Shown here: positions 47,780 to 51,273 of the stretch, one piece after another
Layout: each line of letters opens with the position of its first letter
Position numbering within the stretch: the stretch's first letter is position 1
NCBI GenBank assembly: GCA_016806715.1
Contig: CP060531.1
Span: 915,966 to 979,965 of the forward strand
Reading direction: 5' to 3'
DNA: 64,000 nt
Origin: Thermoplasmatales archaeon
GTDB lineage: Archaea; Thermoplasmatota; Thermoplasmata; Thermoplasmatales; Thermoplasmataceae
Notes under the pieces: model-generated
What the model saw: the letters and a program-made list of their open reading frames with translations, nothing else
The model's database searches: none
Told to the model about the DNA's origin: nothing
Made by a program: the position numbers and the translations under genes

Positions 47780-48454
47780 GTGAAGAGGGAAGAATTCATG
47801 GATTATCTGGCTTCTAACAGAATCCGGGTGTTTAACATCCATGATGCCTCAAAGATCTTTGGAAAATCCGAAAAATACGTCTCTATGAGACTCGCTGCAA
47901 TGCCTAAAATTAAAAGGGCCATAAGGGGAATTTACTACATCTATGGCACAGACATAAGTGAGATTGCCACAAATATAGTTGTCCCGTCATATATAAGCCT
48001 CTTTTCGGCTTTTGCACTTCACAATGTCACTACACAAATGCCTTTTGAAATCCAGGTCATATCACCTATTCAACACAAAATACTCGACCTGGAAGACTAC
48101 AAAATCAGGTTCATTAAATTTAAGAAAGACAGGATTTTTGGCTATTCCAGGGTCAATGGAAGTATGGTGGCAACTTTGGAAAAAGCAATTGTTGACTCTC
48201 TTTATCTTAACCTGTACGTAAATGAGACTTTGGAAGTGGTAATGGAAAACCCGTCTCTTTTCGATGGAGCAAAATTGATGGATTACGGGTTAAGAATGAA
48301 ATCCGGAGCCACTATAAACCGTCTCGGGTTCCTTCTGGAGAAGACAGGATATGACACAAATAAACTGGAGAAATTCCGATCTGGAAGATATGTATCCTTT
48401 GGCGAAAGGGGATATTCCAGAAATGAGAAATGGAGGGTAATCTTTGCTGAATAG
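47780..48454 (+). CDS. abiEi: AbiEi-like antitoxin/autorepressor
   Basis: This 224-residue protein is the antitoxin partner of an AbiE system. It has an N-terminal helix-turn-helix (FNIHDASKIFGKSEKYVSMRLAAMPKIKRAIRGIYYI) and an AbiEi-type C-terminal part (VVPSYISLFSAFALHNVTTQMPFEIQVISP; ATLEKAIVDSLYL). It starts at GTG. The toxin gene overlaps its end by 11 bases. The adjoining palindromes suit autorepression. Confidence 0.85.
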   Translation: MKREEFMDYLASNRIRVFNIHDASKIFGKSEKYVSMRLAAMPKIKRAIRGIYYIYGTDISEIATNIVVPSYISLFSAFALHNVTTQMPFEIQVISPIQHKILDLEDYKIRFIKFKKDRIFGYSRVNGSMVATLEKAIVDSLYLNLYVNETLEVVMENPSLFDGAKLMDYGLRMKSGATINRLGFLLEKTGYDTNKLEKFRSGRYVSFGERGYSRNEKWRVIFAE

Positions 48455-49184
48455 GGAAGATCTCAGCAAGACTCCAATAGATTTCAACCTATACCAGAAG
48501 GAGAAGGATTATCTCCAGCATATTGTCCTTTCAAGAGTTTTCTCCAGGACAGGCCTTGGTCTCACCTTCAAAGGAGGAACTGCCCTTCAGAAATGCCTTG
48601 GACTTAACAGGTTTTCTGAAGACCTGGACTTCACTGCATCAGAAAATTTTAGCAGAGAAAAACTTGAACGGGGACTGAAAGAGGTGGATAGGTTCTATCC
48701 GAGTTCTTTTACGAAATCAGAAAATGATATTTCACTTGGTTACAAGCTGAAGATAGAGGGGCCTTTATTTCATGGTCAACTCTCTACACAAACTATACGA
48801 ATAGATATAAGCTTAAGGGAAAAGGTTCTGCTTTCCCCTATTAATCGCATGATAACTCCCCTTTACAGCGACCTCCAACCATACATGGTCGCGTTCATGG
48901 ATCCGAGCGAGATTATGTCCGAAAAGATCAGGGCCCTGATGACACGAACTAAAGCGAGGGATCTATACGACATGTATTTCCTTATTCTTAAGAGCGTAAG
49001 GCTTGACCTGGAATTAATATCTAGGAAACTTGAATTTTACTCTATTAAATTTGACAAGAATACATTAAATGAAAGAGTAGGCAGATTAAGACCACAATGG
49101 GAAAAGGAAATTCCTGGATTAGTAAGAGACGCACCGAATTTTGATCTTGTAATTTCCACTTTGACTAAGTTTGTTGGAAGCTGA
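48444..49184 (+). CDS. abiEii: AbiEii nucleotidyltransferase toxin
   Basis: This 246-residue DNA polymerase beta-like nucleotidyltransferase has GGTALQK (Gly44-Gly45) followed by RFSEDLDF (Asp60/Asp62), the family's GSx..DxD motif, and a late EKIRALMTRTKARDLYDMYFL that matches the AbiEii motif with K and RD. In other systems it is a bacteriostatic toxin that modifies tRNA or NTPs. The TTG start at 48444 is backed by a strong GGAGGG ribosome site seven bases upstream. It is translated through the antitoxin stop. Confidence 0.9.
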   Translation: MLNREDLSKTPIDFNLYQKEKDYLQHIVLSRVFSRTGLGLTFKGGTALQKCLGLNRFSEDLDFTASENFSREKLERGLKEVDRFYPSSFTKSENDISLGYKLKIEGPLFHGQLSTQTIRIDISLREKVLLSPINRMITPLYSDLQPYMVAFMDPSEIMSEKIRALMTRTKARDLYDMYFLILKSVRLDLELISRKLEFYSIKFDKNTLNERVGRLRPQWEKEIPGLVRDAPNFDLVISTLTKFVGS

Positions 49185-49530: not shown

Positions 49531-50400
49531 ATGTTCTCACCAAGTGTACTCAAGGACAAGGTTATTCTGGTGACCGGTGGAGGTACCGGTATCGGTCGCG
49601 CAATGTGTGAAAAATTCGCATCACTTGGTGCAAGTATCTCTATACTTGGAAGACGGCCTGAGGTCCTTGAAAAAGCTGTTGACGATATGAAGAACCTTGG
49701 CTACAATGCGTTTTCCGTGAAATGCGATGTGCGATCGCCTGTTGAAATATCTGCCGCTGTTGACAAGATCATAGATCATTTTGGCAGGATAGACGTACTG
49801 GTAAACAATGCCGCTGGAAATTTCGTCTCACCAACGGAACGACTCTCTGCGCATGCCGTGGATTCCGTACTGAACATAGTTCTTCATGGTACAATGTATG
49901 CAACTATTGACATAGGGAAAAGGTGGATAGAGCGTGGTCAGAAAGGAGTGGTGCTCAATATAGTCACCACATACGCGTGGACCGGGTCTGCATTCGTTGT
50001 GCCTTCTGCTGCAGCAAAGGCCGGTGTTCTGGCAGTGACCCGATCACTTGCAGTTGAATGGGCACGGTATGGCATAAGGCATGTCGCAATCGCACCAGGT
50101 CCGTTCCCAACTGAAGCCACCCGGAAAAACCTGTATCCCCTGGAGGAGATGGCGGATATGCTTAAGGAACGGGTTCCGCTTGGCAGGTTCGGTAACATGG
50201 ATGAGATATCAAACCTGGCAGCTTTCCTTGTGTCGGATTACGCCTCTTTCATCAACGGTGAGGTCATAACAATTGATGGCGGGGAATGGCTAAAGGGCGC
50301 TGGGCAGTTTAGCGGCCTGCTTGCGCTCAGGAAAGAGCACTGGGACATGATAAGGGAGATGTCAAGGAAGAAACCTGAAAATAGCTCTGGAAAGGATTAA
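49531..50400 (+). CDS. Short-chain dehydrogenase resembling 2,4-dienoyl-CoA reductase
   Basis: This 289-residue SDR has the NAD(P) site LVTGGGTGIGRAM, VNNAAGNF, and GSAFVVPSAAAKAGVLAVTRSLAVEWARYGIRHVAIAPGPF, which is strikingly like mitochondrial 2,4-dienoyl-CoA reductase (DECR1). The usual catalytic Tyr of YxxxK is Ser here (SAAAK), as in DECR. It may help degrade unsaturated fatty acids or isoprenoids. A TATA-like ttaattatat (~49501-49510) lies ~24 bases before the ATG. Confidence 0.82.
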   Translation: MFSPSVLKDKVILVTGGGTGIGRAMCEKFASLGASISILGRRPEVLEKAVDDMKNLGYNAFSVKCDVRSPVEISAAVDKIIDHFGRIDVLVNNAAGNFVSPTERLSAHAVDSVLNIVLHGTMYATIDIGKRWIERGQKGVVLNIVTTYAWTGSAFVVPSAAAKAGVLAVTRSLAVEWARYGIRHVAIAPGPFPTEATRKNLYPLEEMADMLKERVPLGRFGNMDEISNLAAFLVSDYASFINGEVITIDGGEWLKGAGQFSGLLALRKEHWDMIREMSRKKPENSSGKD

Positions 50401-50417
50401 TAATTAAAGATCAATTT

Positions 50418-50490
50418 CAAGAGAGGCCACGATGATGAATTCAGCCTAGACTGATTATGATGACTGACGGGCAGACTGAGTGGTCTTACT
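50418..50490 (+). ncRNA. C/D box guide RNA (2'-O-methylation)
   Basis: Directly after the SDR stop lies a full C/D guide RNA. It has C box ATGATGA (50432-50438), guide ATTCAGCCTAGA (50439-50450), D' box CTGA (50451-50454), a 2-base spacer, C' box ATGATGA (50457-50463), guide CTGACGGGCAGA (50464-50475), D box CTGA (50476-50479), all matching consensus. Flanking strands GAGGCCAC and GTGGTCTT form a terminal stem. Both guides are 12 bases, the archaeal norm. By the D+5 rule they would direct 2'-O-methylation in rRNA or tRNA containing UCUAGGCUGAAU and UCUGCCCGUCAG. Targets are not checked. A TATA-like stretch (ttaataattaaa, ~50397-50408) overlaps the SDR stop and could drive it. Confidence 0.82.
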
Positions 50491-50589: not shown

Positions 50590-51273
50590 CTAAGTCTCCT
50601 TGCCTGCAGGCTTGACTCCTTCTATCCCATGGGAAGAAATGGAATACACAATAAGGAAAAATACGATAAACAGTGGTATGAGCAACAGGTCATCGACAAT
50701 TATCACGGACTCAACATACCAGAATGCTGAAAACGTCAAGAGTAGTGCAGATACTGAGACTTTCATCACCGCCTGTTTCACCTTCCTGATCTGTGAATGC
50801 AGGATGAACGAAAAAACAAGAACGGCTACTATTCCAAAAAAAATACCCAGAAGTGTGGAATCAAAATTATTCGGAAAGAGGGCAACTAGCACTATTGCTG
50901 CCTCAAAAGCTTCCACGGACCCAACGGACAGCGAAGTAACCATGAAGCTCTTTTCCTGCTTACCCTCATTATTTCCCGTGAATCCCTCTCTCTGGTATCT
51001 GAAGGACCTCCTGGCGCTTCTCATGAGGCGTAATCCGAAGTACAGCAATAACGTGGCAGAGAATACCCTGACATAATTCAGCGGGAATATCGACAGAAGG
51101 CGTCCTGCGAGTGCAGTAGGTACCAGGATTATTATAACTCCAACGGCAACAGCGATAAAAACCAGCTTTCTCCTGGATTCAGCGTATAACGCAATTCCTA
51201 CTGCCGAAGCTTCCGCCAACTCCAGGGTGGTAATGCCTAACGCAGCGAGGAAGATGCCTGGATTAAGATACAT
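50590..51273 (-). CDS. Predicted membrane protein with paired acidic helices
   Basis: This 227-residue membrane protein has about six helices. Two half-repeats carry acidic residues inside hydrophobic helices: LGITTLELAEASAVGIALYAESRRK (residues ~12-36) and SLSVGSVEAFEAAIVLVALFPNNF. That is the pattern of small cation transporters of the GDT1/UPF0016 type, but the family motif is not exact. A role in metal or proton transport is inference. The function is unknown. Confidence 0.6.
   Translation of the reverse strand: MYLNPGIFLAALGITTLELAEASAVGIALYAESRRKLVFIAVAVGVIIILVPTALAGRLLSIFPLNYVRVFSATLLLYFGLRLMRSARRSFRYQREGFTGNNEGKQEKSFMVTSLSVGSVEAFEAAIVLVALFPNNFDSTLLGIFFGIVAVLVFSFILHSQIRKVKQAVMKVSVSALLLTFSAFWYVESVIIVDDLLLIPLFIVFFLIVYSISSHGIEGVKPAGKET

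Follow-up and report, generated by a model that had tools for sequence, protein, structure and literature searches.

Analysis of the window, i.e. the whole stretch of 64,000 nucleotides examined here, revealed a complete archaeal C/D box sRNA on the plus strand at 50424-50486, read directly from the sequence. Its left neighbour is an SDR gene (Pfam adh_short) ending in a TAA stop codon at 50398-50400, and its right neighbour is a convergent iron-permease-like gene on the minus strand (50590-51273; Pfam OFeT_1). The SDR stop codon is found 31 nt upstream of the C box, so that the reading frame and the sRNA do not overlap, and the placement of the sRNA just after this stop codon, as put forward in the original prediction, is correct. 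The elements follow one another in the order stem, C box, 12-nt guide, D' box, 2-nt spacer, C' box, 12-nt guide, D box and stem:

50391-50412, plus strand: AT-rich TATA/BRE-like element aaaggattaataattaaagatc, a putative promoter of the sRNA, overlapping the SDR stop codon
50424-50430, plus strand: 5' arm (AGGCCAC) of the 7-bp terminal stem, pairing with 50480-50486
50432-50438, plus strand: C box ATGATGA, from the sequence; TGATG invariant in alignment A1
50439-50450, plus strand: D' guide ATTCAGCCTAGA, 12 nt; its best 16S match is the organism's own 16S AGGCUGAA in h27
50451-50454, plus strand: D' box CTGA, from the sequence; CTG invariant in alignment A1
50455-50456, plus strand: TT spacer between the D' box and the C' box
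50457-50463, plus strand: C' box ATGATGA, from the sequence; TGATG invariant in alignment A1
50464-50475, plus strand: D guide CTGACGGGCAGA, 12 nt; its best 16S match is the organism's own 16S GCCCGUCA in h44
50476-50479, plus strand: D box CTGA, invariant in alignment A1
50480-50486, plus strand: 3' arm (GTGGTCT) of the terminal stem, from its pairing with the 5' arm and from stem covariation

Thus every element originally described, namely the ordered boxes, two guides of 12 bases and a terminal stem, was found, and together they carry the features of archaeal C/D sRNAs: correctly ordered C/C' (RUGAUGA) and D/D' (CUGA) boxes, a pair of guides each about 10-12 nt long (here 12 and 12) and a terminal stem closing the C/D k-turn. 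There is one copy of the full box pattern in the window and none in 60 simulated 64-kb windows, with a rough analytic expectation of about 5e-5 per window, in agreement with the earlier statement that such a pattern is very unlikely to arise by chance. A slightly looser C-D'-C' pattern has a single occurrence in the 1.96-Mb genome, at the sRNA locus. In the same window, two overlapping ORFs adjoin a tRNA gene (47780-49184, plus strand); the second is a clear AbiEii nucleotidyltransferase toxin (Pfam E 6.8e-34) and the first, a 224-aa protein without a match, occupies the position of the AbiEi antitoxin, making this a likely type IV toxin-antitoxin pair.

Rfam did not report the sRNA at gathering scores, a cut-off at which only tRNAs were found. 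Its best Rfam match was sR60 (RF01309), with 38.2 bits and an E-value of 3e-8, below the gathering score of 50 bits. The two RNAs are built alike and have almost identical D' guides (UUCAGCCUA in sR60), whereas their D guides differ and the C1402 target described below is not common to the sR60 consensus. A match to SNORD43 in Rfam (14.2 bits) was judged to be noise. We concluded that the RNA is a genuine further archaeal C/D sRNA missed by Rfam thresholds and not a categorically new one; the kind is well known, while the conservation of this sRNA and the support for its target are unusual.

By BLAST alone the sRNA was detected in 23 of 61 related genomes, counting the one it comes from. A covariance model gave matches in 99 of the 117 genomes of the order (96 strong, with E < 1e-7, and three weak), distributed over 31 of 33 genera with the three weak matches counted, and in 47 of 51 near-complete genomes, indicating that the boxes are conserved in relatives as anticipated. 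The model was built from 29 sequences, partly those searched, and E-values of the training members are therefore not independent; most of the matches lie outside the training set. The terminal stem is paired in 98.6% of cells in relatives, with compensatory changes in four of its five pairs, and its covariation exceeded that of all 500 shuffles (0/500 as good) and of all slid controls. Named records with exact-pattern matches include Thermoplasma sp., Aciduliprofundum sp. and DHVE2 archaea, and the same list holds some bacterial records, apparently chance matches. Four records, with Diapherotrites, Micrarchaeota (two) and Heimdallarchaeota in their titles, also contain C/D-like sRNAs whose D guide is of the C1402 type; misbinning of these MAGs is possible. 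In one genome, which may be a mixed bin, there are two strong copies of the sRNA, each on a different contig.

The SDR gene lies beside the sRNA only within the genus, while the sRNA persists elsewhere. In 53 related loci, the region between -34 and -27 relative to the C box is AT-rich (A+T of 0.79-0.92), and further upstream, between -40 and -36, lies a purine/A-rich block. Given that the SDR neighbour is limited to the genus and that the TATA-like block recurs in these loci, the sRNA seems to form a separate transcription unit, probably with its own promoter downstream of the SDR gene. A scan for bacterial-type promoters and terminators found nothing; its models are bacterial and ill-suited to archaea.

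The D guide pairs with positions 1337-1348 of the organism's own 16S rRNA (GCCCGUCA, h44), in a run of 8 bp covering the N+5 nucleotide, C1341. Aligned with the 16S of one E. coli strain this base falls at 1401; in the h44 region, numbering in that strain runs one base behind the standard, and taking the landmark GUCA as 1405-1408 we assign the N+5 base to E. coli C1402. The D' guide pairs with positions 837-848 (AGGCUGAA, h27), likewise in an 8-bp run including N+5, which is G841, corresponding to G902 in an alignment with E. coli 16S. The original prediction had placed the methylated bases five nucleotides from each D box, and the best 16S match of each guide is indeed Watson-Crick paired over N+5 (C1402 and G902). 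The scan of 16S, 23S and tRNA for complementarity that it had proposed thus returned 16S targets for both guides, that of the D' guide in h27, each with only 8 contiguous pairs, against 9-10 in relatives, and with position 3 from the D box mismatched. A run of 8 bp is one short of the usual 9-bp cut (PMC4644070), and the proposal that a complement below 9 bases refutes the guide RNA would here have been misleading. Moreover, 53 of 300 shuffled guides (18%) reached at least 8 contiguous pairs over 16S and 23S, and, when G-U pairs are included, the D guide scores about as well on one 23S stretch. Taken by itself, complementarity in this single genome is not significant and was therefore not used as proof of the target.

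The evidence for the D guide comes from its relatives. We typed 16S position 1404, which faces position 7 of the D guide, in genomes of the order, 70 of 117 giving a match. A C at 1404 is accompanied by a G in the guide in 39 genomes and a U by an A in 21, with no exception among the 60. At the genus level the comparison of guide base with 16S 1404 stands at 20 against 7 (Fisher p about 1e-6, ignoring relatedness), and a 16S tree of 25 genomes with 1404 masked requires at least five independent base changes, each followed by the guide. The N+5 base facing the D guide is always C1402 and always Watson-Crick paired in the genomes of the order compared. On this comparative evidence the predicted target in 16S h44 is real, proven by guide-target covariation, and the sRNA almost certainly directs a methyl group onto the decoding-site C1402. 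A resemblance to the 16S decoding region had been seen earlier and left unclaimed as incomplete; the match is indeed incomplete, at 8 pairs, but the caution proved unnecessary given covariation in 60 of 60 genomes.

Support for the D' guide is more uneven. Many genera carry the D' guide TTCAGCCTTG, a 10-bp complement of 16S CAAGGCUGAA, and TTCAGCC is kept in most. In several genera, however, the guide is lost or retargeted, making the D' target less secure; searches within 16S found no convincing target for the retargeted guides. In three genera (g10, g18 and g19), 16S has GACUG in place of GGCUG in h27 and the D' guide is lost altogether. The loci of these genera (L214-L229) have a degenerate D' box, an AT-rich D' guide and an intact D half, i.e. 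they are single-guide forms that coincide with the change in h27. As the D' guide is lost in other genera, the D guide is, across the genomes compared, the constant function of the sRNA.

The genome encodes both fibrillarin (PF01269, E 1.8e-55) and a Nop-domain protein (PF01798, E 2.2e-33), supplying the fibrillarin and Nop5 components. Genes for the two are often adjacent in archaea; here they lie far apart (C1:38716-39309 and C1:1429346-1429768, respectively). With both proteins present, established C/D biochemistry predicts 2'-O-methylation of C1402 and probably of G902. The C/D and C'/D' motifs would form k-turns binding L7Ae, Nop5 and fibrillarin; the D guide on h44 would then direct 2'-O-methylation of C1402 at the P-site/decoding centre and the D' guide on h27 that of G902. 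In addition, by holding h27 and h44 at once the sRNA may help 16S to fold, a bridging or chaperone role that is plausible because the two helices are neighbours in the folded subunit. Taken as a whole, the locus very probably encodes a dual-guide archaeal C/D sRNA, likely transcribed from its own promoter, that guides methylation of C1402 and G902.

A narrower interpretation is that, of the two guides of a real sRNA, the D guide alone has a functional target, with the D' guide being a relic or serving as a chaperone only. The mismatch next to the D' box in this genome, the genera in which the D' guide is unrelated to h27 despite an unchanged h27, and the absence of the guide where GACUG replaces GGCUG all point this way, while the retention of TTCAGCC in most genera and the full 10-bp complement in many argue for a function in h27; we regard this interpretation as possible though doubtful. 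That the guides act instead on non-rRNA such as tRNA or mRNA is very unlikely. Two tRNAs do contain, on the sense strand, 8 bases of the D-guide complement, but the D guide follows 16S 1404 in all 60 genomes, and the D' guide finds its best tRNA match on the antisense strand. The tRNA targets were rejected, as the two sense matches are not tracked by the guides of relatives and the D' match is antisense. Finally, the folding energy of the sRNA is ordinary (z = -0.73), as might be the case for a chance arrangement of boxes in an untranscribed intergenic region; an ordinary value is also expected of a C/D RNA, because its fold depends on k-turn proteins, and order-wide conservation, compensatory stem changes and guide-target covariation refute a chance origin, leaving it a negligible probability.

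Several known systems are close to the dual-guide C/D sRNA favoured here. The eukaryotic U43-type snoRNA AtU43 guides Cm1645 of Arabidopsis 18S, the equivalent of E. coli C1402 (PMC11542601); the predicted site is identical to that of the sRNA, while U43/SNORD43 is a eukaryotic form and common descent is a possibility only. In bacteria, the ribose of 16S C1402 receives the same methylation from RsmI (with RsmH; PMC5053481), but these are stand-alone protein enzymes working without a guide RNA. Within archaea, sR17 of Nanoarchaeum equitans is a dual guide that connects two widely separated 16S sites close to the decoding centre (h28), and for which a bridging or chaperone role was proposed (PMC4644070); its sites (A915/U1370-1371) and guides differ from those described here. 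In Pyrococcus abyssi Cm1376 pairs with m6A1469 at the P site (PMC7005279), which we take as the C1402-A1500 pair, and in a review a Pyrococcus Cm with a different number is given as the equivalent of Cm1402 (PMC11542601). For H. volcanii, the C1402 position is reported as unmodified (PMC2584109). A survey of seven archaea gave sparse predictions in h44 (PMC4644070), and archaeal C/D sRNA guides have been described as fast-evolving, with no site common to all seven surveyed species (PMC7994747). A single vertically inherited C1402 guide, present early in archaea, ancestral to the eukaryotic U43 snoRNA and among the few C/D sRNAs kept as Thermoplasma-like lineages shed most of theirs, is a conceivable but rather improbable history, suggested in part by the matches in the Micrarchaeota, Diapherotrites and Heimdallarchaeota records. 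Together, the data describe one guide that is retained across an order and has kept pace with at least five independent changes in its target. This order-wide tracking is strong evolutionary evidence that methylation of the decoding-site C1402 matters, and it provides a guide for a position methylated in bacteria, in at least one archaeon and in eukaryotes.
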